Shown: in pieces, positions 21,001 to 61,400 of the stretch
Position numbering within the stretch: position 1 is the first letter of the stretch
Layout of the letters: each line of letters opens with the position of its first letter
Assembly (NCBI GenBank): GCA_032622095.1
Contig: CP136067.1
Span: 129,907,990 to 129,971,989, forward strand
Reading direction: 5' to 3'
DNA: 64,000 nucleotides
Origin: Siphonodentalium dalli
Lineage: Eukaryota; Mollusca; Scaphopoda; Gadilida; Siphonodentaliidae
Notes under the pieces: model-generated
Databases searched by the model: none
What the model was told of the DNA's origin: nothing
The model's input: only the letters and a program-made list of their open reading frames with translations
Position numbers and translations under genes: made by a program

Positions 21001-24000
21001 TTTTTTCGACTTAGAATTTGACCGTCTGTTAACATTTTTGGTTTCCGACCGATAACTCCAGTTTGGATTATTTGATCTGAACCAAAGTTGGTATGTGTAT
21101 TTCTCAGCTAAAGATACAGGCCAAGTTCAAATTCGGATACCAGACTTATTCAATTCAATTTTCACCAGACTTATGTCCATCTTTGACTTGGAATTTTTGC
21201 CAATTTGAGGTTTCCGGATGATAACTTTAGTAAATGTGTACTGAATGAAATTAAATTTGGTATGTAGGTTTACTAGCACTAAAGACAGGTTTTTATGCGC
21301 AAACAACGGTCGTATCAAGCCGACACTTAGAGGCGGACATGAGGTCTACCGACCTTTTATTGTCCGCCGACCCAACGGGTTCGGAGGACTATTATAATCA
21401 GCCTGTGCGTCCGTCCGTCCGTCCGTGTTTACATATGGGCATATATTGGTTACTTTGTGGGTACAATGGGCACTTGTTGGGTATTTTCCGCCTTGTTGGG
21501 TATTTTCCCGCCTTGTTGGGTATACCCAATAGCCCTGACAAGTTATTCTTTGTCCAAACATATTTTTTGGCTTTCATGTGAATGTACTCAACAGGTGGTT
21601 TGGACTTCATTTGTCCTAAAAAAAAGTCCATAATGTCCAAACCAGAACCCAACAAAAAAATATTGGATGACCCACTATGTGACCCACTATGTGCCTATTT
21701 GTGAGATTTTTTTCATACCCAACAAGGGAACCCAATAAGATTTTGGACAACTGACCCAATTTTTGCCCAAGTGAGAACCCAAGATGACTTCAACTTATTT
21801 GAATTTACTCAACAATGTCTGCATTTTTTAGCCAATAAATATCTGAACAGATCTATGCAGCCAACAATATTTTAATTGTGCCCAACCAGAACCCAACAAA
21901 AAAATATTGGATGACCCACTATGTGCCTATTTGTGAAAACACATTTTTCATACCCAACAAGGGAACCCAATAAGATTTTGGACAACTGACCAAATTTGTG
22001 CCCAAATGTGGGTACGTCCGTCCGTCCGTTCGAGGTTTCCGGATGATAACTTTAGTTAGAGTGAACCAAATTAAATTAAATTTGGTATGTGGGTTTACTA
22101 GCAGAATAGACAGGTCAAGTTCGAATTCTGGTTCCGTCCGCCAATTTTTACCAGAGTTATGCCCCCTTTTCGACTTAGAATTTGACCGTCTGTTAACATT
22201 TTTGGTTTCCGACCGATAACTCCAGTTTGGATTATTTGATCTGAACCAAAGTTGGTATGTGTCTTTCTCCCAGCAAAACACAGGTCAAGTTCGAATTCGG
22301 GTTCCGCCCGCCAATTTTCACCAGAGTTATGTCCCTTTTTTACTTAGAATTTTTGCCAATTTGAGGTTTCCGGATGATATCTTTAGTAAATGTGTCCTGA
22401 ATGAAATGAAATTTGGTATGTAGGTTTACTAGCACTAAAGCCGACACTTAGAGGCGGACATGAGGTCTACCGACCTTTTATTCAACTTGTTTTACTTAGA
22501 AAATTTCTCACTTTTTCGGTTTCCGGATGATATCTCAAGTTTGGATCCTTTAATTGTTACACTTTAATATGCCATATTTGAACTAAGGTGGTAAAGGATC
22601 TAAATAAACCTTCAAATAGTTCACTATTGAACCAACAATTACAGTCTTCATTAGTATTTTGAGATGAGGGACGGGTGCGAATTTTAGCACCCGTGATTTG
22701 AAAATTACGAGTGTGTACGGGTGCGAGAGCAATTACTCCCGTCTCCTGGAAAGGACTGCGATCCGTTGTCCGTCAGGGATTCATCCAGCTCCTGTTCAGT
22801 GGTTTAGTGCTACAGGTCAAAGTTTTGGAGTAGCATTTTGACCTGTAGCACTAAAACCACGGAACTGGGCCTGGTGGATCTAATATGGCTGAGAGTTAGT
22901 AACAGGGTGTATATCATTCACACCAACTAAGCGACAAGCTAACTTAATAGTATCAATATAAATAAAATTTTATATAAAAACATAATGTTAAAGTAAAACC
23001 TCCATTACGATAAGTAAATAAGGATTCTCTGGATTAACCTGGTTAATTATTGCATAATCACAAGCTAAGTCACTCGTTTTAATAAGTTTTATTTTTATTT
23101 CCAGATCACGAGAGCAGATGTTGAAGTTCAGCCCTACGCTTTCACCACAAAGTCACTGTTTGTCGGTCACACAGATTATAAATATCTCAGATGGCAGGTC
23201 AGTCGGTTACACAGATTATAAATATCTCAGATGGCAGGTCAGTCGGTCACACAGATTATAAATATCTCAGATGGCAGGTCAGTCGGTTACACAGATTATA
23301 AATATCTCAGATGGCAGGTCAGTCGGTTACACATATAAATATCTCAGATGGTAGGTCAGTCGGTCACACATATTATAAATATCTCAGATGGCAGGTCAGT
23401 CGGTCACACAGATTATAAATATCTCAGATGGCAGGTCAGTCGGTTACACAGATTATAAATATCTCAGATGGCAGCTCAGTCGGTCACACAGATTATAAAT
23501 ATCTCAGATGGCAGGTCAGTCGGTCACACATATTATAAATATCTCAGATGGCAGGTCAGTCGGTTACACATATTATAAATATCTCAGATGGCAGGTCAGT
23601 CCGTCACACATATTATAAATATCTCAGATGGCAGCTCAGTTGGTCACACATATTATAAATATCTCAGATGGCAGCTCAGTTGGTCACACATATTATAAAT
23701 ATCTCAGATGGTAGGTCAGTCCGTCACACATATTATAAATATCTCAGATGGCAGGTCAGTCGGTTACACAGATTATAAATATCTCAGATGGCAGCTCAGT
23801 TGGTCACACATATTATAAATATCTCAGATGGCAGCTCAGTTGGTCACACATATTATAAATATTTCAGATGGCAGGTCAGTTGGTCACACAGATTATAAAT
23901 CAGGAGTAATCCAGGGCTAATCTGGCGTGTCAGTCGAGTGAATTTGGCCGGCTCATAAATACTTGATTTGGCAATTTTGGGTGCTCAATTCATTAGCCAT

Positions 24001-27000
24001 ATTTGCAGGTCCGGAATCTTTGTTCTGGCAAATAAAATAGGATCATTACTATACAAATATGCCGATACCAAGACAGCCCCTTTTTCACGAAAGTAAACAA
24101 CAAACAAATTCGTGAATTCAAGAAAAACATGCATGCAAATACCTGTACAACATCACTCCTCTGTAACTTTGCGCCAGAGTTGAGTAGGGATGACTTGTGA
24201 AAGGGAATTACTTTAATTTAATTGACTTCATGTGTTTCGTCTGCAAATGTACTTCAACTGTATTATTTAGGCACACTTTTGCTGCTTACAGTCAAGTTAT
24301 ATATTGATGATTAAAAAGGAGACAGGTTCGCAATTGTGAGAGATAGATTGCCAGGCCTTCGATTATGAGGCGTGCGATCGCGCTCGCGCACCATAGCACG
24401 CCTGAAATTAAATCTTGGCGAGTAATTAATCACACTCCTCGGCGATATTCGGCGCACGATTGAAAAAGACCCATTTGATTTTGCAAGCTTGCAAGCGTCG
24501 CGCTTCGGATTAATTTGAATTTTCTAGTCCAGGAGATCAGTTGACCTCGCCACTATGTTGTACAGTAAGCAGTCGGCACCCGGCCTTTGATGTGCCGCCC
24601 ACTGCTCCACATGTGACATCGATCATCGGCACAGGGAGCACGTGACGTGTTTATCTCAGCTTGCAGAAAAACTGAATGAAAGTATGGAGTCTTCGCACAG
24701 GCTCAGTTCCGGACAGCCGAAACGAGCCAGGTTATCATTATCTCACAGCAGCGGAGATGATTCCGGATCGGATTCCGACTTTTTGAATGACAATGACTCA
24801 TCAGATTTGAGTAGTTCCGGGTTAGTGACCGTTACCGGGGTCTGTGGAGAGTACCGACAGTGACACGGAAGATGAACGTTCAGAGTGAACAATTCAGTTG
24901 ATTTTAACCCTCTATCGTCCATCACCATGGATACTTCCAAATTAATATAAAGATTTGTTTTAGTTTTAATTGTTCATTACTTCAATGTGTACAAGATGAA
25001 TCACAATGGTAATACAAATTGATTTAATTTTGAGTCTTCGTTAGTGATTTTATACCCCCGTAATATCCACCAAAATCACACGCCTGGGTTTCAGGTTAGG
25101 GGAGTGACCAATCACACTCCTGCATTTTACAGAATCGAAGGTCTGGATTGCCATCGGTGGCTGTTCTATTCCATTTCCCACCATTTTCGAAACACGTGCG
25201 CATGCTAGTAGAGTTATCTTTTTTCTTCCTGCGAAATTTTCATATGTTTTAACTACCAGCACCTACATTCAGTAGTCTGTGTTGATTGAGTGAGTGAATG
25301 TCAAGTACACAGAAAGCAAATGAAATGAAAGGATTTTCCCACTACATCCAAGCCTTGAAATAGCGTGTCTGTCATTTGCAGAATGAGGTCCTTAGAGGGT
25401 GAATTTAGTTATGCTACCCCGCTAGCATCACCAAATTCACCCTCTGGGGACCTCATTCTGCTTACACCTCAGCATCTTGACATGCAGGTTGTTGACACAC
25501 CTGGTATATCGTTAACTAATAATTTTGTCCAAGCTTTTATTCCTACATTTTTCGGTCAATGTTTTTTAATCTTGTCACTGATATTTAATACCATGGGAAC
25601 CTGTGCACCTGCGATTATGATGTCTGTCCGACTTTTTTTTGTGGAGTTATTCCCCTTTTTCGACTTAGAACATTTTCGCAACATTCATAATTTTGTCCAA
25701 GCTTTTATTCCTACGTTTTTCGGTCAATAGGTTTAAGATTAGGGTTAGGGTTTTGCACCTGCAATGGGAACTGTTATTTTATTATTTTAACTAAATGTTT
25801 ACTGACATGTGAAACATCTTAGTATTTAAAAAAACAGGGGGGTATCCTTAGTCCCATTGGGACAGTCACACCTCTAGTTATTTCTACCTGCAGGTTGTTG
25901 ACATACCTGGTATATTGTTAACTAATAATTATTTCTAACTGCAGGTTGTTGACACACCTGGTATATTGGATCATCCGTTAGAGGAACGAAACACAATTGA
26001 GATGCAGGCCATCACGGCACTGGCACATCTGAGGGCGGCGGTGTTATTCATGCTGGACTTATCAGAACAATGTGGCCACACACTCGACGCACAGGTGAGT
26101 TTTTGGTACTTGGGTACATGTGAAGAAGTATATTGAGATTATTCTTAGGTGCCTTATAATACTGTCAGCATGATTATTAATTTTGGAGAAAATTCCCAAT
26201 GATCACTATTATTTGGCATTGAGACATAGAGTGAAATTGCCATCACTATTGTTAATTTCAGCCCAAATCACCACCCATTACCATTATTAGGCAAAACAAA
26301 AATTATATGAATCTCAAACAATTTTTATTCTGAATCAATGAGGGAGGGAAGATTTTATTTATATTTTTTATTTTTTTTGTGCACATCTTAAGTATAGATT
26401 ATGATAGCTTCCCTTATCTAATAATTGTGAGAAAATGTAGAGGGAACGTTGTTATGCATATGTGACCCGCCATATCAAATCCAGTCGTAAGTCGGGATTT
26501 TATTACCCTGTGCCAATGCATTCTCTTATATATGCGAGTCGACCATAGGTCGCCTCCCATATATAAGACAATGCATTGGCCTAACAATTTTTTACAATTT
26601 TAATAATTTTTTCTTGTATTCTTTAACAATTTTATAATTTCACCCATACAGAGCCCCAGACAAACATGAGCAGACGACACTCTTCTATATGCTTCTATAT
26701 ATGTGTGGGGCTCCCTGCAGGGTAATGGATGTTTTTTATTTTATGTCCTAAAAATTGTAAGAAACATTTATTTAAAAAAAATGATAAAAAATTGTTAGGC
26801 CAATGCATTCTCTTATATATGCAAGGCGACCTATGGTCGACTCGCATATGTAAGAGAATGCTTTGGCACAGAGTACAAAAATCCCGACTTACGACTGGAT
26901 TTGATATGGCGGTTCACATATATGCTCATTTAATCTGATATAAAAAGTACATTGTGGTACTATTATATGACACGGATTACCTATAATGTTCCTAATGCCC

Positions 27001-30000
27001 CTGACTACTCACAATTGTTATTGTTATCTATAAATTGACACCTCTCCACTATAACATGTGATCCTAAATTTCCTCCAGTGCCTTTCAATTGTTCTGGAGT
27101 TACAATTAGTACACCAGACTATGATGATCTTCTAATCATTTTCTTCAATGTAGTCATCTACTTAATGTTCTATGTCACTATATGTATACATGATAGTCAA
27201 TCTTCACACATTACACAGAGATATGTATACAAGCCTTGAAATAGTGTGTCTGTCATTTGCAGAATGAGGTCCCTAGAGGGTGAATTTAGTGATGCTACCC
27301 CGCATAGCAGTCTAGCATCACCAAATTCACCATCTGGGAACCTCATTATGCCGAGATGTAAGCAGAATGAGGTCCCCAGAGGGTGAATTTGGTGATGCTA
27401 GCCCACTATGCGGGGTAGCATCACTAAATTCACCCTCTGGGGACCTCATTCTGCAAATGACAGACACGCTATTTCAAGGCTTGTATGTATATATAAATAA
27501 CAATAATGCTGACAACAATTCTCTTTTGAGCTAACATTGTAATATTGTCAGTAGGAGATACAGATTGTTATTCAAGCAAAATTAGTTGCCATTGTGACAA
27601 GCCTTGAAATAGTGTGCCTGTCATTTGCAGAATGAGGTCCCCAGAGGGTGAATTTGGTGATGCTAGCCCGCTATCCTACCCCGAATAGCGGGCTAGCATC
27701 ACCAAATTAGTAGTTATCCCTCAGGACCTCATTCTGCTTACACCTCAGCAGAATGAGGTTCCCAGGATGTTAGCCCACTATGCGGGGTAGCATCACTAAA
27801 TTCACCCTCTGGGGACCTCATTCTGCAAATGACAGACACACTATTTCAAGGCTTGATTGTGAACAAGCCTGCAAATAGTGTGTCTGTCATTGCAGATGAG
27901 GTCCCCAGTGGGTCAGTTTAGTGATGCTACCTGCACAGCATCTCCAAATTCACCCTCTGGGAACCTCATTCTGCTTTGGTCTCATCTGCTATGGGACACC
28001 TAGGATCAAATAGAAGTTCCCCAGTTGAAGTTGGTGATGTTCACCCGCTTTATGCATTTTATCTTTTAGGGGTTATAGAAACTTCCCAGATGGGAAACAA
28101 AGTTAGTTTCGGACTATAGATACGTCCCAGAATATGAGGTCTAAGCAGAATGTGGTCCCCCAGAGGGTGAATTTGGTGATGATAGCCCACTAAATTCACC
28201 CTCTGGGGACCTCATTCTGCAAATGACAGACACACTATTTGCAGACTTGATTGTGAAACTTTGTAATTTCACATGCTGATCTCCATCTCATTCATTGCAA
28301 GCCTTGAAATAGGGTGTCTGTCATTTGCAGAATGAGGTCCCCAGAGGGTGAGTTTAGTGATGCTAGCCCGCTATGCGGACCTCATTCTGCAAATGACATA
28401 CACCCTATTTCAAGGCTTGATTCATTGCACACAAAGCTGATTTTTCAAAAATTCAGGCCTGATCACCAAGCCTTGAAATAGTGTCTGTCATTTGCATAGT
28501 AGTTTGATGAGTAGTTATCCCTCAGGAAAGGTCGTTTATGGCAACAAACATCTCCCTCCAAAAAAAATTTTTTACCCTGTGCCAATGCATTCTCTTATAT
28601 ATGCGAGTCGACCATAGGTCGCCTCGCATATATAAGAGAATGCATTGGCCTAAATTGTTTTTACAATTTTAATAATTTTTTCTTGTATTCTTTAACAATT
28701 TTGCATTTGTTTTATCTGTTGTCTACTTATCTACTTGTCTACAAATCATATATGGACCATTCCAAAGTACACTTTATTAATTTGGTGGTATAACCCCAAT
28801 CTCTACCAGAGCGCACCAGTCATACTTCCTTTCTGACGCTGTCACTGGCTGGTTACTAGTCTGGTTTCTATATTTAGTGCGGGTTTTTCCAGACAAATGG
28901 TGAGACCGCGATCGACCAATGTCAAATTTCCTATGTGCTTTGAGAACAATTCTCGCACTAAAAATTTATTGATAGAATGGAGAATTAGAGCGGTAGTTTT
29001 GTTGACAATTTTCGCACATTTCTTAGCAAAATAGCAGCAAAATAGAACTCTTGTGTTCGTCTTGCCATGAATGTTGTCGTCCATGTGCGTTTTGACTTTT
29101 GTATTGATAAAATAATTGGAGAACCAAATCACGCCATTACGCAATATAGTTCTTTGGTTCTAGAGGGTAACTTAAGGTACAAAATTACACAAATGTTGTT
29201 CGATATTTTTTGTGCTTAATAAGGCCAACATGTTGCTCTGTTCACTTAGTATATATATTTATATCACTGAAGTTCACAAAATGTGGGTAAAATGTCACCG
29301 GTAACAGCGCTCTTATCGAGTCATCAAGGGAGGTAAACCCTGCATGGAGTTTGGTATAATCCATTTAGTATCGAAAGGGTTTAAATAAAATGAGTTTGTT
29401 TATTCTTTTCAGATTAAATTATTCAATAGTATCAAACCTCTGTTTGTAAACAAACCTCTACTGGTGTGTGCTAATAAGATTGACGTGGTCAGGCCAGAAG
29501 AACTGAATGATGAGAAAAAGGTGAGTGTTATACAAATTGAATGATTCCCATAAAAATCACAGGTTCCTTAAAAAGAACTAAGCCAATAAAAACAAAGGTT
29601 TTGTTGAACAAACTTATGTATTTAACCCTTTCATGACGGGAGATTAAAGATGTAGCATTAAAGATCCTGTGCCAGTTCATTCTCTTATATATGCGAGGCT
29701 CCTTATGGGAGACTTGCATATATTAGATAATGCATTGGCACAGGGTTTTCGCAAAATTTCTGGAAGCTCCAGTCATTGAAGGGTTAAAACTAGTGTGTTT
29801 TGTGGAATAAAAGCATGTTCTTTACAATGTTGGTGTCTTGTGATATACTGGTGAGATATAACAGGTAATATGGAATAGAGCTATGCATGTTAAAGTTATG
29901 TGAAACCACTTGGGTGCACAGCGAATAAACTTGCTCAAAGCAACTATTTTAATTAATTTTATATCAAAATTTCCAGCACACAACATCATTCTATCATATA

Positions 30001-48000: not shown

Positions 48001-51000
48001 AAAGAAGAATAAAAGGATCTAGGCTCCCAAGAACAGGAAAATCAGTCGAGAGGAAAAGGATACAGTCGGAGATGGGCGAGTTGGGTATCGAGTTTGATAA
48101 CATTAACAAGGTAAAACTATTTTGCGCAACCTACAATTTTCCCTTGACATTCCGTTGGAGGACTATATTAATGACCCTCATCCGTGTGTGCTTCCAGTGT
48201 GTGCGTCCAGTGTGTCCATGTGTTTCCATCCGGAACTTTGTCTGAGTCTGTACACTGTCATTTTCTGGTCAATTTAAAAAAAATTTGGGACATATATCAA
48301 CCAGCATGGGAATCTGCACACCTGCGATCTTTAGTTCGGTTGGACTCATTTTGGCAGAGTTATTGCACTTTTTGTACTATGTTTTAATGTTTTATATTTT
48401 AGAGTTATTGACCCTTTCTCGACACATTGAAGATGTGCAACAGGGATCTGAAACCCATAAATCCTTCCAACCTGTCACCTTCGTCGGGGGGCCATTTTGG
48501 TCAGCGACCTTTTATTTTATTTGGTATATGTACCCGCATCCATGGTCTGACCCAAACAGGAAGTGCCATGTCATTTCATCACTTATATATACCACATCAG
48601 GTAGATTTTTGGCACAGCTGCATATGTACTGGTCTCCGAGACATGCCGAGCGTTGCCCTGTGCACATTCCTGGGACTATATTACACACTTACCAGAAGTC
48701 ATAAAGTTCAATTTATTTTATAACTTTACCTTTCTGTGATCAAATAAGAATTATACAATTCAAAATGCCCATTTAAAATTCCATTATAAATGAGTAAGTG
48801 CACCAAATTAGTATATACACCACTGAATACACTGAATGCTGTTTTGAAATATGCATACTTGTATATGAGAGAGAGAAGTCAATTCTCCCTGGGACAAAAA
48901 TAGGGAGAAGACATCTCATTACACTTCTATATTAATAGACTCTATGCCCTGAATGATGGGCGGGAGTTATCTTGCTTGTATGTGTTCAGATTAGGTCAAA
49001 TAGAATCTTCATGTATATTTATTCCACACCCATTGACGTGAGGCACATGTATTCAACGGAATCCCAGCCATTGAATACATATTAGTGTATACCTCTAGTG
49101 GAATACAAGCCGGAACTATTCTTGTTGACGTTGTCGCCAAGAAAGATGACGTACATTACGTTGATCATCCGCTTCCGGTGACCCCCCCCATAATTACTGG
49201 TTATTTGTCAGACTTAAATCAAAATAAAGGTAGCTATACTAACAATGGGGGTGACAGTCATGGATTGAACTTATCTGACTGAACGGTGTAGAATAAATAC
49301 AGAACACAACTTACATCATAATCTCAAATCTTTTATCGAACTCGTTGCGGACGGTGCAAAGTTATATTTCGCTCGAGCGTATATCCTTGCGCCATCCGCA
49401 ACTCATTCGATAAAAAATTCTCGATTAAGATGCGCGTTGTGTTCTGTCTATGTATATGAACATAGCGTAACCTAACCATGATGATATCAAACATGCATAT
49501 ATTGGAGGTATGTTAAATATTAAGCAACAAGATTTATAAGTAAACAAAGCCTTGTTTTCCAGAGAATTTTGATTTGTCATGCTATCAGAAAATGTATGTA
49601 AACAATACATTAAACCAGGCCTCAGCTTACCAGGCGAGTAGGGCGAAATAGTCGCCCTCGACGCCTCGAAGTCGCCTTAGTGTCGCGTCAGGGAGAAGTG
49701 AAGTCGCCTTCCGATTTCGTCGGGAGTCTCCCGATTTTGTGTCATTTCTCCAGTGCATACTCCCGATTGGGAAACGAAATCTCCCTATTCAAAAGATAAA
49801 ACCCGAAATTAGCCTACGGCTGTAGCAAGCGATAAGCCATGCATGCTATAGTGTTACAAATCAATTATGAATATATCGCCTGCGAGTCAAACAGTGACAA
49901 AATGTTGACACAAGGTCGACTCCTTTTGTTTAACAGCGCTGAGTAAGTAAATGCGGTCTTCAATGTCCAGACAAGGATTATAATATATCAAACAAAGAAG
50001 CCTTCTGTTTTGGCCATACTTAATAAAGTGTTGGTTTCTGCTCGTCCCGACTGACTGCTTTAAAACCGCCGACTCAAATTATTATTATATTGCCGATTTA
50101 AACATTTTGTTTGTTTTAGTTCCGTTTCCGTCTTTGTGGTATTCCGTGTTTTTACGCAATAACAGAATGCTAATCGAACGGACCTCAAATAATTCTATTG
50201 AATCGTACTCCCTTTAAATTATCCGATGTTACCTGATGTTACTGAATATATTTGACGACAAAATTATCCGAGAGCACCATTTTATAGTGTGCAAATAAAG
50301 TTTTAATCGTTGTATTGCCTTGTTCGAAATAAAACGTGATCCATAACCGGAAAATCGTAATTTTATTCCCAATGATTCAGTGATTTTAGAGACACTCGGT
50401 AGTCGATGTCAAGACTCAAGTCAAGGCCGTTAATTGTGGCATATATATGCAAACCAAATGCAACAAACAATCTATATTACATTTAAATGAAAAATTTGAA
50501 TTTTTTTTCCATGATAATGTTTTTTTCGTTTGTTTAACCTCATATTAAATAAATTATCAGATGAAATTATTCTCCAGTCTCTCACTTCTCCCTATTTTTC
50601 TCTCACTTCTCCCTATTTCTGCCAGAGGGAGAAGTCACTTCTCCCTATTCTCAACCTGCAAGCTGAGGCCTGCATTAAACGATCGTATCATCACTATACC
50701 TTGTATTATCACTGTAAACTGTAAATGATATATCATTTTGAAGACAGATTCAGGGGTTTTCACGAATGCCAGGATTCCACTTATAAATTTAATACGTCTT
50801 TTGAATGAAAGTCCGTTATAGAAGAGTTACAGGGCGGGACTCTGTCCAAAACAGCATCAACCCAACCGATATCCAAGCTGTTGTGGACCGAGAAGACTTG
50901 GTATAGGCTGGTCCCTGTATAGTGATTCTGTTGTGATATAATCCATTAAGACATTCTCCATCATATTCCTTTCAGACTCACTTCTGTGTAGTGATTCTGT

Positions 51001-53164
51001 TGTGATATAATCCGTTAAGACATTCTCCATTATATTCCTTTCAGACTCACTTCTGTGTAGTGATTCTGTTGTGATATAATCCGTTAAGACATTCTCCATC
51101 ATATTCCTTTCAGACTCACTTCTGTGTAGTGATTCTGTTGTGATATAATCCGTTAAGACATTCTCCATTATATTCCTTTCAGACTCACTTCTGTGTAGTG
51201 ATTCTGTTGTGATATAATCCGTTAAGACATTCTCCATCATATTCCTTTCAGACTCACTTCTGTGTAGTGATTCTGTTGTGATATAATCCATTAAGACATT
51301 CTCCATCATATTCCTTTCAGACTCACTTCTGTGTAGTGATTCTGTTGTGATATAATCCGTTAAGACATTCTCCATCATATTCCTTTTAGACTCACTTCGC
51401 CAGGCAGAAGTCCAGAAGCTTGAGCAGAAAACCACTGAAGAGGAAGCGTGACGCATCTGAGGGCGGCGGCAGCAGATCCCGAAGCATGTCACGAACTCCG
51501 AGAGATAAATCTGGTGTCCGAGATGAGGTGGTAAGTAAAAGTTTAAGGATCTGGTTCATCTTACAAAACAATACACAAAAGATAACTTTATAAAACTAAT
51601 TTTGAAGACAGGTTTGTATTATCATCCCCGAACACCAGCAAGTCTGAATTTAATGTGTCTGACATTTGCAGATTGAGGTCCCCAGAGGGTGAATTTAGTG
51701 ATGCTACCCTGCACAGTGGGCTAGCATCATCAAGTTCACCCTCTGGGGACCTCGTTCGGTTAGACGCATCTTCTGGGAAGTATCTTATAGTCTCAAATTA
51801 ACATTGTTTTAGTTAATTTTTCCCGTCGATCTGTTTCTATATCCCCTTATTTGCAGAAGATAAAATGCATAATCGAGGTGACTAATGGGGGATAGCATCA
51901 CTAAATTCCCCTCTGGGTGCCTCATTCTGCAAATTTCAGACACTCTATTTGAAGGCTCGAACACCAGGGTCTGCATAGACCAAAATTTACTTTTGCCAAA
52001 ATGAAAATATTTTTTTGCCAAATTGTTTTAGAAATTGCTGAATGCTATCACTGATAGTATCAGTTTATGCAACATTGAGCCTTTATTTCTACAATCTCTG
52101 TTTAAGCGACTTTTGATATTGATAAGAAAGCAGTTAGTTAAAGGCACGGGTGGCGTTCGTTGCAGAAATATTCATATTTGTTCAAATCGCCATCAACAGA
52201 AGGAATATTAAAATATATATAGTTTTGTTCATATGCCAAACATAATCCGCACGTAAATAGTATATTGTCGTCAAGACGTACGATGGTGTCTGCTTGTGTT
52301 ACAGAGGTTGTGCTTCTGTTTAAATAACATAGCGCAATTCTATTGGTTAATCACACACAAATTATATAAACGCTCTTTATTATTTCCATATCAGGAAAAC
52401 AGTAACAAATAACGCTCTTTATGTTTACCATATCCGGATCTAAACAAAAGCCAGGAAATGTAACGTTTTTTGCTTTTGTTTACATAACAAAGGAAACAAA
52501 ATTGACAATAACATACTGTTTATGCCATATTTCTGATTGGTATAAGAACAAGGTCTGTCCTTATTTTACTATTTCTGTTTATGGCGGTTTTTGACGGAGC
52601 TGAATATTTTAACAGCATACTCACCTCCAACGCCGCCCGTATCTTTAATAATGATTCTCGCCTTTCTATTGTGGTTTATCATACAACAATAAACAAATAT
52701 CTGAAAAGTAACATTTTAGAAAAGTTTTCCATCAGAAGGGCTCGCCAAAATAGGATTAGCTTTGTAAGCACCACTGCAATAACTACAAGTAATCCCTTCA
52801 CCCGTCGATACTAATCCTATCAGATTTACTGCATGCTGGCAATATTGATACAAAAATCATTAAATTACCTGCTTTGACAACTGCTTTGGCTTTGAGTAAA
52901 TTTAATCGCTGTGCACCTAAGCGGAGTATTTTACATCACTTTAAGTAAATTTAATCGCTGTGCACCGAAGCGGAGTATTTTACATCACTTTAAATGTATT
53001 TCTAATTGCAGATGTGTAAGAAGATCAAGAGAATTGGCCGCAGAGCACAGCACCCCATGCAGCACGGTGCGAGGAAGGGTGAAGGAGACAGACATGTACC
53101 AGATCTTAAACCCAAACATCTGTACGCAGGAAAAAGGAAAATGGGCAAAACTCAGAGACGATAA
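5848..53164 (+). CDS. GTPBP4: GTPBP4/NOG1 nucleolar GTP-binding protein, 16 coding exons (first exon not found)
   Basis: This protein is the conserved nucleolar GTPase of the NOG1/OBG-HflX-like group, which binds pre-60S ribosomal particles during large-subunit assembly. Sixteen exons join in frame across consistent phases to 619 codons plus stop. Human NOG1 has 634 residues, and the missing start would add about 16. Counted from the first visible residue, the order is the N-terminal helical domain (1-170), the GTPase domain with G1 GFPNVGKS, G3 DTPG, G4 NKID and G5-like STLTEEG, then the NOG1 C-terminal region, acidic SESEDEE, and basic KRKR and KxKH tails. The start ATG exon should encode the family's YNFKK-type N terminus. 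It was not found upstream and probably lies outside the window. Introns are large because of transposon insertion. Several splice junctions are tandemly duplicated into introns, yet the reading frame is intact and looks functional. Confidence 0.96.
6070..6510. mobile_element. MITE with GGTTACACTGGTGTAAAT ends
   Basis: The left end GGTTACACTGGTGTAAAT is inverted at the right as ATTTACACCAGTGTAACC. TATA flanks both sides and reads as a target duplication. The interior is non-coding. It lies in intron 2 of GTPBP4. Confidence 0.7.
6600..6860 (+). repeat. Degenerate HINE core repeat
   Basis: ACATGGCACAGATGTCAACC and GAACCTGCACACATGCGATT match the cores of the HINE at 17108-17890 (GGCACAGACATCAACC, GAACCTGTGCACCTGCGATT). 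No ends remain. Confidence 0.5.
7006..7202. mobile_element. Near-perfect palindromic MITE, ends CAGTAATGC
   Basis: It opens CAGTAATGCCC and closes GGGCATTACTG, flanked by TA on both sides, which suggests Tc1/mariner-like mobilisation. The two halves are almost entirely complementary, giving a hairpin of about 95 bp per arm around AGAGCTTTCC. Sister copies lie at 34990-35114 and 41480-41692. Confidence 0.8.
7225..7328 (+). CDS. GTPBP4: GTPBP4 exon 3
   Basis: It follows acceptor TGCACTAG and encodes [20 protein letters not shown] and on to ARHLID plus two bases of an Asn codon. The donor is GTGAGT. The end of this exon with its donor is partly duplicated 28 bp downstream. Confidence 0.95.
7318..7364 (+). 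repeat. Tandem duplicate of exon 3 end plus donor
   Basis: CTCATAGACAAGTGA spans the exon 3 donor, and CTCATAGACAGGTGA recurs 28 bp downstream. The copy keeps a GT donor. Confidence 0.75.
7368..7460 (+). repeat. Dispersed repeat, AATGGATTCTCCCA family
   Basis: TGAATGGATTCTCCCATCCA, GTTATAAAAGTA and TGGAATGGTCTATTATTCAT recur at 61010-61095 with few changes. The family's superfamily was not determined. Confidence 0.6.
7893..7996. repeat. 104-bp palindrome made of short repeats
   Basis: CTACTCTCACCTGCCGAATA at the left is inverted at the right. The arms contain repeats of GCCGAATAATAGTGCT. A three-fold CTCGGCATGCACATT repeat precedes it (about 7836-7874). No target duplication was recognised. 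Confidence 0.7.
8280..8363 (+). CDS. GTPBP4: GTPBP4 exon 4
   Basis: It follows acceptor TTTCAAAAG, completes the split Asn codon and encodes [20 protein letters not shown] and on to AALG plus two bases of Arg. The donor is GTGAGA. Its last 12 bases plus donor recur at 19378. Confidence 0.95.
8399..8862. mobile_element. hAT-type MITE, CAAGCCTTGAAATAG family, long diverged form
   Basis: Two internal hairpins (GCAGAATGAGGTCC..CCTCATTCTGC) are separated by about 200 bp. The terminal repeats are badly diverged (TCCAGGCTTGGAATAG at the right). Its sequence and about 40 bp of left flank match 19377-19846. Confidence 0.65.
8874..9240. mobile_element. TAACCCTTT MITE carrying two inner palindromes
   Basis: TAACCCTTTCATGACTGG at the left is answered by an inverted arm at about 9198-9240. 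Inside, two palindromes built on GCCAATGCATTCTCTTATAT and TTATATATGCGAGG flank an AT-rich core. Confidence 0.7.
9434..9501. repeat. Palindrome of about 68 bp
   Basis: TTGGGATATAAGATTTTATG is inverted after a short loop as CATAAAATCTTATATCCCAA. No flanking duplication was seen. Confidence 0.65.
9824..15652. mobile_element. Giant foldback element with long inverted arms and an internal satellite
   Basis: The left arm starts CAGCGGCCAAA and has ACCCCTACCCACGGTAGAAC. The right arm is its inverse, ending at GGCCGCTG near 15649. The arms are highly similar over ~850 bp (9824-10690 against 14765-15650). Each side also has a second, less similar arm unit (10509-10900 and 14205-14760), so the arms are themselves tandem. 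The interior holds a degenerate satellite (11100-13600) and a unique segment (13620-14000). No transposase is seen. The structure recalls Foldback/Galileo elements. Exact ends are uncertain by a few bases. Confidence 0.75.
11100..13600 (+). repeat. Degenerate ~190-bp satellite array inside the foldback element
   Basis: The marker ACTTTACAAAAAGCGGCTGG recurs with changes near 11154, 11343, 11549, 11748, 11939, 12099, 12279, 12466, 12648, 12845, 13033, 13228 and 13411. Spacing is 160-206 bp (average near 190), about 13 monomers. Monomers also share a 'GTCTTGAACACACCA' segment. They are far more diverged from each other than the arms are. Confidence 0.75.
15761..17107 (+). mobile_element. HINE-b, full-length copy
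   Basis: It begins TACGCCCGTTTGAAAAAACG and ends GGGCGTATTTTGCACGCCC then AGCTCTTGTTAT. It has a (CCGT)n-type microsatellite near 16316-16344 and about five cores with CCGGATGATAACTTTAGTTA. A 480-bp interior stretch (15830-16310) rich in TGTGGCTA/TAGCCACA looks like a later insertion between two microsatellite pieces. Confidence 0.75.
17108..17890 (+). mobile_element. HINE-c
   Basis: It begins ACCCCCCGCAACGAAGTTAG with a CCCCCC/GGGGGG inverted repeat. It has GTCCGTCCGTCCGTCCGTCG and about four cores of ~150 bp (GGAACCTGTGCACCTGCGAT). It ends GGGGGGTATCC..CCATTGGGACAG. It starts exactly where HINE-b stops. Confidence 0.75.
17946..18391. mobile_element. piggyBac-like MITE, TTAACCCTTTCAGTGCCAGG type, with inner palindrome
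   Basis: TTAA bounds both sides. The ends AACCCTTTCAGTGCCAGG and CCTGGCACTGAAAGGGTT are inverted. One inner palindrome (CCCTGTGCCAATGCATTCTC to GAGAATGCATTGGCC) lies near 17989-18068. TTAA targets are the hallmark of piggyBac elements. There is no coding capacity. Confidence 0.8.
18455..18608 (+). CDS. GTPBP4: GTPBP4 exon 5 (P-loop)
   Basis: It follows acceptor TTTGTTGCAG and encodes [18 protein letters not shown], then the G1/P-loop [14 protein letters not shown]. The donor is GTCAGT. The P-loop Gly-Lys-Ser that contacts GTP phosphates is intact. Confidence 0.97.
18789..19148. mobile_element. piggyBac-like MITE, TTAACCCTTTCATGACGGG type, with inner palindromes
   Basis: TTAA bounds both sides. 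The ends ACCCTTTCATGACGGGAGCT and AGCTCCAGTCACGGAAGGGT are inverted with some mismatches. One complete and one partial inner palindrome (GCATTCTCTTATAATGCGAG; ATGCATTCTTTTATATATGC) flank an AT-rich core. Confidence 0.8.
19250..19376. mobile_element. hAT-type MITE, CAAGCCTTGAAATAG family, half copy
   Basis: AGCCTTGAAAATAGTATGTC leads into one hairpin (AGAATGAGGTCCCCAGAGGG / CCCTCTGGGAACCTCAT). It stops abruptly where the exon-4-derived duplicate begins. Confidence 0.7.
19377..19846. mobile_element. Duplicate of exon 4 donor flank plus long-form MITE
   Basis: AGCTCTAGGAAGGTGAGATT and TATAGTAGGACCCTGCAATC match 8352-8392, which includes the last 12 bases of exon 4 and its donor. The rest aligns with the long-form MITE at 8399-8862. 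Here the right terminus is intact (CTATTTCAAGGCTTG). Confidence 0.75.
19896..20149. mobile_element. hAT-type MITE, CAAGCCTTGAAATAG family, standard form
   Basis: The terminal repeats CAAGCCTTGAAATAG and CTATTTCAAGGCTTG enclose two ~110-bp hairpins, each AGAATGAGGTCCCCAGAGGG inverted around GATGCTA. No clear target duplication was seen at this copy. Confidence 0.85.
20270..22490 (+). mobile_element. HINE-d pair, tandemly duplicated with a nested CCCAACAAGG repeat
   Basis: Two near-identical blocks lie about 1334 bp apart (20310-21300 and 21650-22490). Each has a repeat rich in ACCCAACAAGGGAACCCAA, then (CCGT)n, then cores with TTTCCGGATGATAACTTTAG, and ends GGCGGACATGAGGTCTACCG. The start of the second copy (TGTCCGCCGACCCAACGGGT, 21360) abuts the end of the first. 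A single clean copy lies at 61835-62556. Confidence 0.75.
22799..22860. repeat. Hairpin, 25-bp stem
   Basis: GTGGTTTAGTGCTACAGGTC is inverted across a short loop as GACCTGTAGCACTAAAACCAC (one bulge). No target duplication was seen. It could be a small MITE remnant. Confidence 0.6.
23105..23197 (+). CDS. GTPBP4: GTPBP4 exon 6 (switch region)
   Basis: It follows acceptor ATTTCCAG, has 31 complete codons ([20 protein letters not shown] and on to YLRWQ) and donor GTCAGT. It contains the threonines of the G2 region. The last ~34 bases and the donor are the founding unit of the array that follows. Confidence 0.97.
23163..23905 (+). repeat. 40-bp minisatellite made of the exon 6 end and its 5' splice site
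   Basis: The unit reads TATAAATATCTCAGATGGCA then G|GTCAGT. Eighteen copies of ATCTCAGATGG(C/T)AG occur including the true exon end, nearly all at 40-bp spacing. Each copy keeps a GT donor. The unit is not a multiple of 3, so use of a downstream donor would change the frame. The array ends in a partial unit at about 23900. Confidence 0.95.
24352..25145. mobile_element. Non-autonomous DNA transposon, ends CAGGCCTTCGAT, with ORF remnant
   Basis: The ends CAGGCCTTCGAT and ATCGAAGGTCTG are inverted, with GATTGC on both sides (24346-24351 and 25146-25151). The left subterminal region folds (GCGTGCGATCGCGCTCGCGC). Inside, on +, an open frame from about 24684 begins [20 protein letters not shown] and is Ser/Asp-rich. 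It may be the N terminus of a lost transposase. The interior around GCCTTTGATGTGCCG resembles that of 196-898. Confidence 0.75.
25349..25470. mobile_element. hAT-type MITE, CAAGCCTTGAAATAG family, half copy
   Basis: The left terminal repeat and first hairpin are present, and the copy stops at ACACCTCAG. It directly precedes the first partial exon 7 duplicate. Confidence 0.75.
25481..25944 (+). repeat. Partial duplicates of the exon 7 acceptor and first exon bases
   Basis: GCAGGTTGTTGACACACCTG at 25485, GCAGGTTGTTGACATACCTG at 25891 and the true site at 25942 form three units of ~51 bp. The units are joined by GTTAACTAATAATTATTTCT. A HINE-c fragment is inserted between the first and second. 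Each unit ends its coding similarity after GGTATAT. Confidence 0.9.
25524..25880 (+). mobile_element. HINE-c fragment
   Basis: It starts in a core (TTTTGTCCAAGCTTTTATTC) and runs to the HINE-c tail CCCATTGGGACAGTCACACC. It lacks the microsatellite and left end. It lies inside the exon 7 acceptor duplication, so it is younger than that duplication. Confidence 0.75.
25945..26094 (+). CDS. GTPBP4: GTPBP4 exon 7 (DTPG, G3)
   Basis: It follows acceptor TTTCTAACTGCAG, has 50 codons starting [20 protein letters not shown], includes the G3 DTPG motif, and ends at a GTGAGT donor. Two upstream partial copies of its first ~24 bases lie at 25488 and 25894. Confidence 0.97.
26462..26916. mobile_element. 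MITE with GTGACCCGCCATATC ends, carrying two inner palindromes
   Basis: The terminal repeats CCATATCAAATCCAGTCGTA and its inverse are about 40 bp. The same inner palindrome as in the TTAA MITEs (CCCTGTGCCAATGCATTCTC) occurs twice, flanking an AT-rich core. A third small hairpin insertion (AGAGCCCCA..TGGGGCTCCCTG) lies near 26648-26718. Confidence 0.75.
27230..27483. mobile_element. hAT-type MITE, CAAGCCTTGAAATAG family, with 8-bp TSD
   Basis: Complete two-hairpin form. TATGTATA is duplicated at 27222-27229 and 27484-27491. The 8-bp duplication supports hAT mobilisation for the whole family. Confidence 0.92.
27598..27855. mobile_element. hAT-type MITE, CAAGCCTTGAAATAG family
   Basis: The ends are complete, with two hairpins of which one is damaged. 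The flanks share ATTGTGA (27590-27597 and 27856-27863). Confidence 0.88.
27864..28249. mobile_element. hAT-type MITE, CAAGCCTGCAAATAG variant, with 8-bp TSD
   Basis: Long-form copy. ATTGTGAA is duplicated at 27856-27863 and 28250-28257, so it inserted at the very edge of the previous copy. Confidence 0.88.
28298..28419. mobile_element. hAT-type MITE, single-hairpin 122-bp form, with 8-bp TSD
   Basis: ATTCATTG flanks both sides (28290-28297 and 28420-28427). Only one hairpin remains between the terminal repeats, the smallest complete form in the window. A further fragment begins at about 28470. Confidence 0.9.
28575..28653. repeat. Inner palindrome alone (CCCTGTGCC.. type)
   Basis: CCCTGTGCCAATGCATTCTC to GAATGCATTGGCC, the same palindrome as in the TTAA MITEs, followed by an AT-rich tail. 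No outer TTAA ends were recognised. Confidence 0.7.
28660..29412. other. Intron 7 sequence, nothing recognised
   Basis: AT-rich intronic sequence without an element, palindrome or exon that I can support. Confidence 0.4.
29413..29520 (+). CDS. GTPBP4: GTPBP4 exon 8 (NKxD, G4)
   Basis: It follows acceptor TTCTTTTCAG and has 36 codons. [11 protein letters not shown] contains the guanine-specificity motif NKID. The donor is GTGAGT, phase 0. Confidence 0.97.
29622..29787. mobile_element. piggyBac-like MITE, TTAACCCTTTCATGACGGG type, short
   Basis: TTAA bounds both sides. A single inner palindrome (TTCTCTTATATATGCGAGGC) gives a 166-bp element. Confidence 0.75.
30410..32564. mobile_element. hAT-type element, ends TAGAGCTTGACGG..CCGTGAAGCCCTA
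   Basis: The flanks GTAGCTGT (30402-30409) and GTAGCAGT (32565-32572) match at 7 of 8 positions, an 8-bp target duplication. The subterminal regions repeat ACCGCGGTAT and AATACCGACTACA. No transposase frame is left. A second element is nested at 31248-32537. The interior near 30890-30933 (GAAGTCAGTCAACTATATTC) recurs at 34417-34456. Confidence 0.75.
31248..32537. mobile_element. Nested DNA element with ACTGACCCG ends
   Basis: ACTGACCCGCGTTTAGGCCC at the left and GGGCTTTGAACCGGGTCAGT at the right are imperfect inverted repeats. Both subterminal regions contain GTGGGCTTAAAC-type motifs. There is no coding capacity. It sits inside the hAT-type element. Confidence 0.55.
33018..34332 (+). mobile_element. 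HINE-a, second full copy
   Basis: It begins TAGCTCAACTTACTTTGTAA, has GTCCATGTGTCCGTGTGTCC and about seven ~160-bp cores, and ends GAGCTACAGTGTCATTGACA. Similarity to 3464-4785 is high throughout. Confidence 0.8.
34990..35114. mobile_element. CAGTAATGC MITE, internally deleted
   Basis: The left half matches 41480-41692 up to AGCTCTCG, then jumps to the terminal CTTAATTAGAGAATTACTG. TA flanks both sides. Confidence 0.7.
35130..35330 (-). repeat. Dispersed ~190-bp repeat (copy 1)
   Basis: On the - strand, TTGTCAATTTGGCATGTCGT, TTATTCTTAGCGTTATGTCG and TTTGAGGCACATCATG match 61420-61580 on the + strand at roughly 90%. Both copies keep an open frame with VNLAC and LRHIM, but no known family was recognised. 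Confidence 0.6.
36472..36561 (+). CDS. GTPBP4: GTPBP4 exon 9 (G5-like)
   Basis: It follows acceptor TTATTCTAG and has 30 codons. [18 protein letters not shown] aligns with the STLTEEGV stretch of animal NOG1. The donor is GTAAGT. Confidence 0.96.
36830..38116 (+). mobile_element. hAT element with BED zinc-finger remnant, 8-bp TSD
   Basis: The ends TAGTGCTGGGACGG and CCGTCCCAGCACTA are perfect inverted repeats. GTCAATTT is duplicated at 36822-36829 and 38117-38124. Subterminal AACCGGTTA repeats occur at both ends. At about 37357-37490 on + a frame encodes [20 protein letters not shown] and SNMKSHI, the C-x2-C-like start and STSNM..H of a BED finger of hAT transposases, although here only one cysteine of the first pair is clear. 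The rest of the transposase is missing, so the copy is non-autonomous. Confidence 0.85.
38573..38683 (+). CDS. GTPBP4: GTPBP4 exon 10
   Basis: It follows acceptor TTACCTTGCAG and has 37 codons ([20 protein letters not shown] and on to AMPNKRDAK). The donor is GTGAGT. Its final ~30 bases and donor seed a 16-junction array reaching about 39410. Confidence 0.96.
38640..39410 (+). repeat. 45/49-bp minisatellite made of the exon 10 end and its 5' splice site
   Basis: Two unit types alternate: CCATGTAGCGATGCCAAACA-type (49 bp) and CCATGTAACACAAACAAACG-type (45 bp). Both end CGTGATGCCAAG|GTGAGT. Sixteen junctions including the real one are present (aag at 38681, 38726, 38775, 38820 through 39397). 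The first extra unit is 45 bp and open in frame, and the second carries an in-frame stop. Confidence 0.95.
39500..39897. mobile_element. Diverged CCCTTT MITE copy with inner palindromes
   Basis: CCTGTGCCTAATCAATCTCT and GAGTCTCCCATAGGGAGCCT at the left. At the right, GAGAATGCACTGGCACAGGA then ATCATGAAAGGGT. It is old and has an AT-rich insertion in the middle. Confidence 0.6.
39986..40209. mobile_element. hAT-type MITE, CAAGCCTTGAAATAG family, with 8-bp TSD
   Basis: CTCTTAGA is duplicated at 39978-39985 and 40210-40217. The first hairpin is shortened. Confidence 0.9.
40218..40688. other. Intron 10 sequence, nothing recognised
   Basis: AT-rich intronic sequence between two MITEs, with no feature that I can support. 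Confidence 0.4.
40697..40948. mobile_element. hAT-type MITE, CAAGCCTTGAAATAG family, with 8-bp TSD
   Basis: AGTAGAGT is duplicated at 40689-40696 and 40949-40956. Both hairpins are present. Confidence 0.92.
41307..41387 (+). CDS. GTPBP4: GTPBP4 exon 11
   Basis: It follows acceptor CCGTTCCAG and has 27 codons ([20 protein letters not shown] and on to KRKKL). The donor is GTAAGC. It matches the RPPFIPEGV segment of human NOG1. Confidence 0.95.
41480..41692. mobile_element. CAGTAATGC MITE, complete palindrome
   Basis: It opens CAGTAATGCTCTAATTAATC and closes with the inverse, flanked by TA on both sides. The arms are about 100 bp and nearly perfect around CTCTCGGGGAGAGC. Confidence 0.85.
41865..41962. 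mobile_element. Half copy of the MITE at 2202-2640
   Basis: TTGATGGGTAGGTTCCTAGA then TCCGAAGCCAAAAATAAG corresponds to the right half of the 2202-2640 element, diverged. Confidence 0.5.
42113..42164 (+). CDS. GTPBP4: GTPBP4 exon 12 (short)
   Basis: It follows acceptor TTTTATTTCAG. The exon is 52 bases long ([17 protein letters not shown] plus one base of Lys), with the non-consensus but usable donor GTGCGT. The split Lys codon is completed by exon 13. Confidence 0.93.
42347..42588. mobile_element. piggyBac-like MITE, TTAACCCTTTGAGTGCCAGG type, with inner palindrome
   Basis: TTAA is present on the left and degenerate on the right. The ends and the inner palindrome position match 17946-18391. 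Copies of an intronic repeat (TATTGGGAATCCAAATTG / TATCGGGAATCCAGATTG) flank it, so it landed inside a short tandem repeat. Confidence 0.75.
42647..42725. mobile_element. Terminal fragment of a CAGGCCTTCGAT-type transposon
   Basis: CAGTCCTTCAATTTTGAGGC then GCACGCAAAATG aligns with the left end of 24352-25145. No right end was found. Confidence 0.5.
42831..43289. mobile_element. hAT-type MITE, CAAGCCTTGAAATAG family, long form
   Basis: Two hairpins are separated by ~170 bp, as at 8399 and 19440. The ends are CAAGCCTGAGTTTAG and CTATACTCAGACTTG. No clear target duplication. Confidence 0.75.
43561..43650 (+). repeat. 45-bp tandem duplication in intron 12
   Basis: ATTCTACTTTCATATGATAT plus about 25 further bases occurs twice in a row. 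It lies upstream of the exon 13 acceptor but does not include it. Confidence 0.7.
43723..43823 (+). CDS. GTPBP4: GTPBP4 exon 13
   Basis: It follows acceptor TTCTTATTACAG, completes Lys and encodes [20 protein letters not shown] and on to FIDPDIMK. The donor is GTAAGG. It matches human YWDLMNLSEKHDKIPE..YIDPAIMK. Confidence 0.96.
43930..44500. other. Intron 13 sequence, nothing recognised
   Basis: AT-rich intron without a supported element. Confidence 0.4.
44510..44985 (-). mobile_element. Probable hAT-like fragment with short ORF
   Basis: On the - strand an open frame contains [20 protein letters not shown], similar in style and start context to the ORF in 24352-25145. It runs into repeated GGCTACGGCAATCGGCAATG and CTGAATTAAAAGGGCTGGTG, a transposon-like end. 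The opposite end is unclear, and a G17 tract lies at 44967-44983. Confidence 0.4.
45075..45530. mobile_element. piggyBac-like MITE, TTAACCCTTTACCCAACA type, two inner palindromes
   Basis: TTAA bounds both sides. The ends AACCCTTTACCCAACAAAAC and GTTCTGTTGGGTAAAGGGTT are inverted. Two perfect inner palindromes flank a T-rich core. The element at 62692-63064 is the same family in the opposite orientation, with the inner block at the same place. Confidence 0.85.
45728..46040. mobile_element. Two truncated CAAGCCTTGAAATAG-family MITEs
   Basis: 45728-45825 keeps the left end and one hairpin. 45933-46040 keeps CAGGCCTGAGTATAAG and one hairpin. Between them TTTGTGAAACGTAATTTATC resembles the interior of the foldbacks at 57366-59411. 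Confidence 0.65.
46153..46265 (+). CDS. GTPBP4: GTPBP4 exon 14 (acidic)
   Basis: It follows acceptor CCTTCTGCAG and encodes [29 protein letters not shown] and IRSTAR plus two bases of Val. The donor is GTGAGT. The phase fits exon 15. Confidence 0.95.
46300..46523. mobile_element. Diverged TTAA MITE with inner palindromes
   Basis: Palindromes of the GAGAATGCACTGG type appear twice. The right end TCATGAAAGGGTTAA is clear and the left end is eroded. Confidence 0.6.
46700..47575 (+). repeat. Tandem-repeat element (GCTGCTAAACGGCTACCCAT family)
   Basis: A block of ~130 bp (GCTGCTAAACGGCTACCCAT to GGAACAGGGGAATTTTTC) occurs at about 46942 and 47198. TCTCGGAAACGGGTGGAGCT with TATCGACTTGAAATTTGCTA occurs three times between 47328 and 47545. 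The tail AGCCCGGACAACGTCGGGCT is a hairpin. The organisation resembles a HINE but lacks a CCGT microsatellite. Confidence 0.6.
47836..47863 (+). repeat. Poly-G tract of 28
   Basis: 28 uninterrupted G, shortly upstream of exon 15. Shorter G runs lie at 44967-44983, 58499-58511 and 59685-59700. The length as assembled is unreliable. Confidence 0.9.
47957..48110 (+). CDS. GTPBP4: GTPBP4 exon 15
   Basis: It follows acceptor TTATCACAG, completes Val and encodes [30 protein letters not shown] and on to FDNINK. The donor is GTAAAA, a weaker site. Confidence 0.95.
48150..48710 (+). repeat. Degenerate HINE
   Basis: A microsatellite-like GTGCGTCCAGTGTGTCCATG is followed by cores with ATCAACCAGCATGGGAATCT and TTGGCAGAGTTATTGCAC. 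No clean ends. Confidence 0.5.
49299..49447. mobile_element. Small palindromic MITE, ends ACAGAACACAAC
   Basis: ACAGAACACAAC at the left is inverted as GTTGTGTTCTGT at the right. The interior TTTTATCGAACTCGTTGCGG is complementary to CCGCAACTCATTCGATAAAA. 149 bp in total. Confidence 0.7.
49616..50672. mobile_element. hAT-type non-autonomous element with 8-bp TSD
   Basis: CAGGCCTCAGCTT..AAGCTGAGGCCTG ends are bounded by CATTAAAC at 49608-49615 and 50673-50680. Subterminal repeats of GGGAGAAGTGAAGTCGCC and CTCACTTCTCCCTATTT occur at both ends. No transposase frame is seen. Confidence 0.88.
50921..51398 (+). repeat. 69-bp minisatellite made of the exon 16 3' splice site
   Basis: Unit ATATTCCTTTCAG|ACTCACTTC followed by TGTGTAGTGATTCTGTTGTG. 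Acceptor AGs fall at 50975 and every 69 bp to the true site at 51389, seven in all. Each copy includes the first nine exon bases. The genuine acceptor differs (CCTTTTAG against CCTTTCAG). Confidence 0.95.
51390..51530 (+). CDS. GTPBP4: GTPBP4 exon 16 (basic, SR-rich)
   Basis: It follows acceptor CCTTTTAG and has 47 codons ([20 protein letters not shown], then [20 protein letters not shown]). The donor is GTAAGT. It has the KRKR nuclear-localisation-type cluster of NOG1. Its acceptor is the last of seven tandem copies spaced exactly 69 bp. Confidence 0.95.
51640..51960. mobile_element. hAT-type MITE, CAAGCCTTGAAATAG family, diverged long form
   Basis: One hairpin is intact (AGGTCCCCAGAGGGTGAATT / ACCCTCTGGGGACCTC). 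The second is partial, ending TCTATTTGAAGGCTCG. Confidence 0.65.
51965..52890. other. Intron 16 sequence, no gene supported
   Basis: AT-rich. A 77-codon open frame from 52581 ([12 protein letters not shown]..) has no recognisable domain or splice support, so I do not call it a gene. Confidence 0.4.
52896..52993 (+). repeat. 49-bp tandem duplication just before the exon 17 acceptor
   Basis: GTAAATTTAATCGCTGTGCA plus CGGAGTATTTTACATCACTT occurs twice in a row, ending 18 bp before the exon 17 boundary. Related sequence on the other strand occurs near 29900-29930, so part of it is a dispersed repeat. Confidence 0.75.
53012..53164 (+). CDS. GTPBP4: GTPBP4 exon 17 (terminal)
   Basis: It follows acceptor TTTCTAATTGCAG and has 50 codons plus [23 protein letters not shown] matches the GEADRHVFDMKPKHLLSGK tail of human NOG1. 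Candidate AATAAA polyadenylation signals lie at 53480 and about 53514. A HINE fragment with GTCTGTCTGTCCGTCG at about 53190-53310 would fall in the 3' UTR. Confidence 0.96.
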   Translation: MCKKIKRIGRRAQHPMQHGARKGEGDRHVPDLKPKHLYAGKRKMGKTQRR

Positions 53165-60982: not shown

Positions 60983-61400
60983 CTGAAAATGAATGTTGGT
61001 ATTGTATTAACCTTTTCTATACTAAATGGATTCTCCCACCCAGTTATAAAAGTAAATATGGAATGGTCTATTATTCATCTGGATGGGTGTTCAGAACACA
61101 TAAGCAGACAACAGATAATATAAGTGCAGAAAGAGTCATATTTGTTGAACTTATTATCTCATCCCTGGTCCTGCTAATGTGCTATGGTGCTGGTACATGG
61201 GTCCTGCTGAATTGATGTGATGCTGTTAGGGCAAACTAATGCTGTTAAGAAAAAGTACCAATATTTTTTCTAAAGTCGTCATTTTCGCGGTGTTCTGATA
61301 ATCTGAACATATCTGGGAAAAGCATTTATATGTGTATCAAACATTCAAAAACATATATTGCGAAATATGTCCGCTGTGTATCACTAAATGAAGTCATGAC
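60983..61400. other. Receptor gene intron, mostly unique
   Basis: It contains the dispersed repeat AATGGATTCTCCCA at 61010-61095, shared with 7368-7460. Nothing else is recognised. Confidence 0.45.

Follow-up and report, generated by a model that had tools for sequence, protein, structure and literature searches.

Minisatellites that span exon-intron boundaries are known from amphioxus under the name of mirages, and the parts of these reports on which we draw place them in Adh3 and in the globin genes BflGb6 and BflGb9 (PMC3087553), with PGBD5 added as a further case and TnC cited (PMC3902484). Their units, of 10-160 bp, lie at donors as well as acceptors, and RT-PCR by the authors suggested that regular splicing is undisturbed (PMC3087553, PMC3902484). 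Mirages vary in length, and their authors proposed them as a source of new introns (PMC3087553). Excerpts of other papers describe related arrangements: a survey of human paralogs within segmental duplications covered tandem repeats at exon-intron boundaries (PMC2812944), an IFI6 (6-16) minisatellite supplies multiple splice donor sites (PMC4526556, PMC2572611), and a tandem duplication crossing a boundary created a new intron (PMC4974935). Earthworm metallothionein was set aside as a parallel; in the part of that source consulted, its tandem repeats lie inside an intron (PMC12783039).

Here we describe arrays of this type in a single molluscan gene. A first-pass annotation of the same DNA had suggested that copying of splice junctions into tandem arrays may be an unreported route of intron growth; judged by the excerpts consulted, the amphioxus mirages (PMC3087553, PMC3902484) and the human boundary repeats (PMC2812944) show that it was wrong on this point.

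Junction arrays in NOG1/GTPBP4

The window, by which we mean the whole stretch of 64,000 nucleotides analysed, contains exons 2-17 of a NOG1/GTPBP4 gene. Joined together, these exons form one uninterrupted frame of 620 codons including the stop. The product carries the Pfam domains NOG1_N, NOG1 and NOGCT and gives a full-length match to the PDB NOG1 chain 6lss_4 (E 3.2e-267, 619 aa). Exon 1 was found neither by tblastn nor by two pattern searches of the first 6,200 bases of the window, and Rfam gave zero matches at gathering score within the window. The coding exons amount to 1,860 of 47,317 bp (3.9%), matching the earlier estimate of about 4% of the gene span, and the introns to 45,457 bp. 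The gene and its three large arrays, which were established with Tandem Repeats Finder and direct reading, are as follows:

5848-53164, forward strand: NOG1/GTPBP4 exons 2-17, with 15 introns between them and 31 junctions counted
23105-23197, forward strand: exon 6, donor CAG/gtcagt at 23197/23198
23162-23900, forward strand: exon 6 donor array, 18 full copies and a 22-nt fragment; 40-bp unit of 36 exon and 4 intron bp
38573-38683, forward strand: exon 10, donor AAG/gtgagt
38647-39410, forward strand: exon 10 donor array, 16 copies of 44-52 bp; exon-edge copy of 37 exon and 12 intron bp
50915-51398, forward strand: exon 16 acceptor array, 7 copies; 69-bp unit of 61 intron and 8 exon bp
51390-51530, forward strand: exon 16

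The units of all three arrays straddle a splice junction, taking in 8-37 bp of exon and 4-61 bp of intron. Most of what the first-pass annotation said of them holds: the 18 copies of 40 bp at exon 6 are there (17 of exactly this length and one of 37 bp), as are the seven 69-bp copies at exon 16. At exon 10 the reported 16 copies were recovered, but the reported unit lengths of 45 and 49 bp apply exactly to only 10 of them, the full range being 44-52 bp. In each array it is the exon-edge copy that holds the true junction, all further copies being intronic. This regularity had also been pointed out and is indeed seen in all three, but it is no independent evidence because coding constraint would place the true junction at the exon-side edge in any case. 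By hand count, about 25% of intron 6, 27% of intron 10 and 13% of intron 15 consist of extra copies, whose share of the 45,457 bp of NOG1/GTPBP4 intron as a whole is only about 4%.

Partial duplications had also been claimed at the exon 7 acceptor and at the donors of exons 3 and 4. The features that bear on these claims, together with a duplication near exon 17, are:

25878-25968, forward strand: exon 7 acceptor tandem duplication, period 51; true acceptor at 25944/25945
25483-25509, forward strand: third copy of the exon 7 acceptor segment, a 27-bp match 457 bp upstream with other repeat sequence between
8349-8855, forward strand: exon 4 donor, with 15 bp of exon, and intron 4 segment
19376-19844, forward strand: dispersed counterpart of the preceding segment, within intron 5
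7318-7364, forward strand: weak, imperfect repeat at the exon 3 donor, period 28, borderline
52890-52993, forward strand: 49-bp duplication that stops 18 bp short of the exon 17 acceptor, which it does not span

The fourth case, at the exon 7 acceptor, is real: it has an adjacent copy at period 51 whose unit, read by eye, comprises 24 bp of exon and 27 bp of intron. Self-BLAST overlooked this duplication; it was detected by an ungapped offset scan with shuffled controls, which returned 365 segments in the real window and 1 and 0 in two shuffled versions at equal threshold. Over all offsets from 10 to 700, the scan found local duplications across 4 of the 31 junctions, namely those of the three large arrays and the exon 7 acceptor. 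The sequence that separates the exon 7 acceptor copies resembles, by eye, a family with a period of about 170 bp.

The other two claims did not survive. The exon 4 donor segment has no local partial duplicate of the kind proposed; its copy lies 11 kb away (399 of 513 columns identical, 78%) and consists mostly of repeat-element sequence, and we dropped it as a tandem case. The donor, with its 15 exon bp, sits at the edge of this 513-column, repeat-rich copy in intron 5. At the exon 3 donor the repeat reaches a score of 12, as do 3.0% of 3,000 gene positions drawn at random from outside the four arrays, and against this background we no longer treat it as a firm junction case.

Several other repeats occur in the window. 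Arrays of about 160-bp units at 3541-4682, 33103-34227 and 63552-64000, some 30 kb apart, appear by eye to be one satellite family; the family with the period of about 170 bp occurs at 16349-17740, 20698-21288, 22032-22546 and 61900-62485. An element of about 100 bp is dispersed over 8421-8826, 27229-28496, 40028-40920 and other places; by eye it is palindrome-like, and it has tens of distant self-matches in the window. Intron 3 has neighbouring arrays of 16- and 17-bp units at 7905-7987, the units being near reverse complements by eye, and a 15-bp array just before them at 7826-7874. Outside the gene there is one open frame:

59804-61006, reverse strand: open frame of 400 aa, its C-terminal part weakly matching acetylcholine receptor (E 0.0091)

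This frame has no Pfam match. A degenerate repeat of about 60 bp lies inside it at 60132-60418, and four repeat families are found in its neighbourhood, two within the frame and two beyond 61006.

Decoy sites and array growth

A junction that is copied 7 to 18 times while the reading frame stays intact is a natural test of choice among identical splice sites, and a minisatellite of IFI6 (6-16) giving multiple splice donor sites is said to have been described by Turri in 1995. We predicted the outcome of splicing at 39 decoy positions, made up of 17 from exon 6 (5 of them without GT), 15 from exon 10, 6 from exon 16 and 1 from exon 7, where the third copy was left out of the set. Use of 38 of the 39 is predicted to yield a premature stop, so the harmlessness of the arrays would depend mainly on splicing at the exon-edge site, with the copies treated as intron. 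This fits one of the first-pass proposals, selective tolerance of junction-copying duplications. The sole exception is the first exon 10 decoy, at 38728, which would add 45 nt (15 codons) in frame without a stop; it is a possible natural isoform. On these predictions, the exon-edge splice sites are probably those used.

The decoys differ in how well their signals are kept. Among the 17 exon 6 decoy donors, 12 retain GT and 5 read CT, a decay that is expected for unused sites. All 15 exon 10 decoys keep GT, and AG is kept by all 6 exon 16 decoys and by the one tested at exon 7. Full retention at exons 10 and 16 could reflect youth, homogenisation or use.

The differences among copies bear on how the arrays grew. 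At exon 10 the unit occurs in two recurrent forms, and at exon 16 two variants are each found in two non-adjacent copies; this sharing of variants among copies points to several rounds of amplification. Neighbouring copies are not significantly more similar at lag 1 (P 0.08, 0.99 and 0.55 for exons 6, 10 and 16) or at lag 2 (P 0.85, 0.08 and 0.07). Some divergent copies lie at the far edge of an array, but others are interior, such as copy 5 of exon 6 and copy 6 of exon 10. The same variation makes it very improbable that the arrays are an assembly artefact. One published mirage array was apparently misassembled in a genome draft, as stated in the portion of the literature drawn on here, and copy numbers of the lancelet PGBD5 array differed between assemblies; on the other side, re-sequencing of PGBD5 upheld the original sequence, according to excerpts of the same report (PMC3902484), and the copies described here differ by several variants and length forms that mis-assembly would not readily invent, even if it may still have altered their number.

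Our preferred reading, to which we give a probability of roughly two in three, is that these are mirage-type minisatellites: short tandem duplications that copied a junction, were hidden in the intron and were later enlarged. In the first step, a short duplication arising with little homology, perhaps through end-joining, fill-in or slippage, would copy the junction. At exons 10 and 16 the unit edges share at most 1 bp of homology by eye, which would fit end-joining or fill-in duplication. The duplicate would then be nearly unseen by selection; splicing would keep the exon-edge site, and the extra copies would therefore become intron. Finally, unequal exchange or slippage may enlarge the array, as in any minisatellite. 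Four observations speak against this reading: the full retention of decoy signals at exons 10 and 16, a base in the true exon 16 acceptor copy that is private to it among the seven, the lack of significant likeness between neighbouring copies, and a concentration in one gene above the edge-unit expectation described below.

A bias of retention could also leave arrays beside exons, if exon-adjacent arrays last longer because deletions there are constrained and the intact exon copy serves as a seed. Consistent with such a bias, 3 of the 17 other full copies at exon 6 and 2 of 15 at exon 10 match the exon-edge copy of their array exactly, and self-matches in the same window mask 33% of the gene as dispersed repeat, so intron sequence turns over. 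At exon 16, however, not one of the other six copies equals the exon-edge copy. A simple effect of this kind should moreover be small beside the excess of edge units described below, and we consider it unlikely, with perhaps one chance in four.

Placement of the arrays relative to junctions

We compared the arrays with 15 single-locus tandem loci, the junction cases among them, that were hand-picked from 51 clusters as lying in the gene, with adjacent copies, a unit of 10-100 bp and few distant matches; the cluster at 25483-25968 was entered as its period-51 pair. Clusters with offsets above 100, dispersed families, and poly-G and AT-rich runs were excluded, as were small Tandem Repeats Finder rows including those at 14327, 18068, 21473, 21668 and 45309, whose inclusion would raise the expectation slightly. 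Provisional exon ends, up to 2 bases off for some exons, were used in the self-BLAST, the offset scan, the whole-array placement and part of the seed-unit simulations; the joined reading frame, the array coordinates and the edge-unit, decoy, per-position and masked tests used corrected ends. No junction is spanned by 11 of the 15 loci. The first-pass statement that all three classical minisatellites contain a junction is true of single-locus arrays with at least five copies, but these 11 loci and the larger dispersed satellites lie off junctions.

When the whole array is counted, the overlap of 3 of 3 large arrays has P 0.009 under a joint circular shift and 0.014 under independent placement, and the overlap of 4 of 15 loci has P 0.030 and 0.024, respectively. 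We prefer an edge-unit model because an array interior placed over an exon border would damage the coding exon. Under this model each large array is expected to meet a junction with a frequency of 3-5%, and P falls to 4.1e-5 for 3 of 3 and 1.6e-4 for 4 of 15 (0.30 expected), for a window selected after the fact. Seed-unit simulations with or without dispersed-repeat masking put P between 2.5e-5 and 1.5e-4 for 3 of 3 and between 1.5e-4 and 7.5e-4 for 4 of 15, the smallest of these values representing 1 to 3 draws among 20,000-40,000. Limiting the null to sequence outside dispersed repeats raised P for 4 of 15 five-fold, to 7.5e-4. Whether the overlap exceeds chance depends on the null: the earlier judgement that chance overlap of all three is unlikely agrees with the edge-unit value but is borne out only at P 0.009-0.014 when whole arrays are counted.

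Two further comparisons were made. A per-position score of at least 16 (offsets 10-60) is reached at 3 of the 31 junctions and at 1.9% of 3,000 random positions, a background lowered by drawing these positions outside the four arrays. Of the 15 tandem loci, 6 lie no more than 70 bp from a junction, where 1.0-1.4 are expected (P 2e-4 to 1.5e-3), with the 70-bp limit set after one locus was known at 67 bp. All the P values given here apply to a window picked for its striking look and stand uncorrected for that choice.

These numbers can be read in part as chance combined with the choice of window: minisatellites arise wherever they are tolerated, and several here happened to begin on junctions. 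The whole-array P values, the 11 loci that miss junctions, and the selection of the window by a reader who had perhaps looked through many others all point this way. The edge-unit P values for 3 of 3 and 4 of 15 speak against it, with the caveat that the window was chosen after the fact, as does the recurrence of similar arrays in several lancelet genes in the portions of the mirage reports drawn on (PMC3087553, PMC3902484). We regard this reading as only a little short of even odds; it is compatible with a mirage-type origin of each array, and our confidences in the two overlap. That several junction arrays occur in one gene is probably due partly to tolerance and partly to chance and window choice. 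Tolerance alone is insufficient to explain the edge-unit excess in this gene, and a moderate local preference for junctions is possible but unproven.

Alternatively, a mutational process linked to junctions, such as R-loops, splicing-coupled breaks or replication slippage, might seed duplications at splice sites, as the first-pass annotation had proposed in suggesting a recurrent junction-linked amplification process. The edge-unit P values, the 6 of 15 loci within 70 bp of a junction and the fact that donors and acceptors alike are affected argue for such a process. Against it, the four unit segments showed no unusual stability when folded as single-stranded DNA (z 1.7, 2.3, 1.1 and -1.1), their folds being equalled or bettered by 199, 197, 180 and 26 of 200 shuffles; the evidence comes from one gene chosen after the fact, where the masked null gives P 7.5e-4 for 4 of 15. 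The recurrent process is therefore not borne out in this gene, and we hold it to be improbable, at about one chance in five. Hairpin seeding of the arrays was dropped from consideration because none of the four segments was unusually stable, three of them being less stable than the shuffle mean.

The widest claim is that junctions in this genome are preferred starts of tandem duplication, with introns growing repeatedly by copying of their borders and the mirage process running at a far higher rate than one would gather from the scattered cases in lancelets. Such a genome-wide preference, if true, would bring to light a mutational route by which introns lengthen. We think it improbable. A single gene in a window picked after the fact cannot show a genome-wide preference. 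A genome-wide test of arrays at junctions is not mentioned in the parts of papers retrieved from one open-licence library, a search narrower than a full survey.

Comparison with known systems

The mirage-type reading rests on a close anatomical likeness. Repeats span the exon-intron boundary at 4 of the 31 junctions, 2 donors and 2 acceptors, and many but not all copies carry GT or AG; in these three respects the arrays resemble the amphioxus mirages, as far as excerpts of the mirage reports describe them. Unlike the cases in those excerpts, NOG1/GTPBP4 has up to 18 copies and four affected junctions in one gene, known here from one DNA sequence.

The other systems share single features, judged from the portions of each source that we used. 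The human boundary repeats are likewise of minisatellite size and located at exon-intron boundaries, but they vary between paralogs and are tied to novel introns with transcript evidence, whereas we describe one gene copy from DNA alone (PMC2812944). In IFI6, as here, splice donors are supplied by tandem repeats; there two downstream repeat units are used as donors, whereas 38 of our 39 decoys are predicted to lead to a premature stop. The case in PMC4974935 is also a tandem duplication across an intron-exon boundary, but it created an intron, whereas only the lengthening of introns is suggested here. In the Rogers model of intron gain by tandem duplication a new intron arises within the duplicated sequence; the NOG1/GTPBP4 reading frame is complete with the exons listed. 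Taken together with the partially consulted literature, the NOG1/GTPBP4 arrays exemplify well a kind that is already known, and their density in a single gene is unusual.
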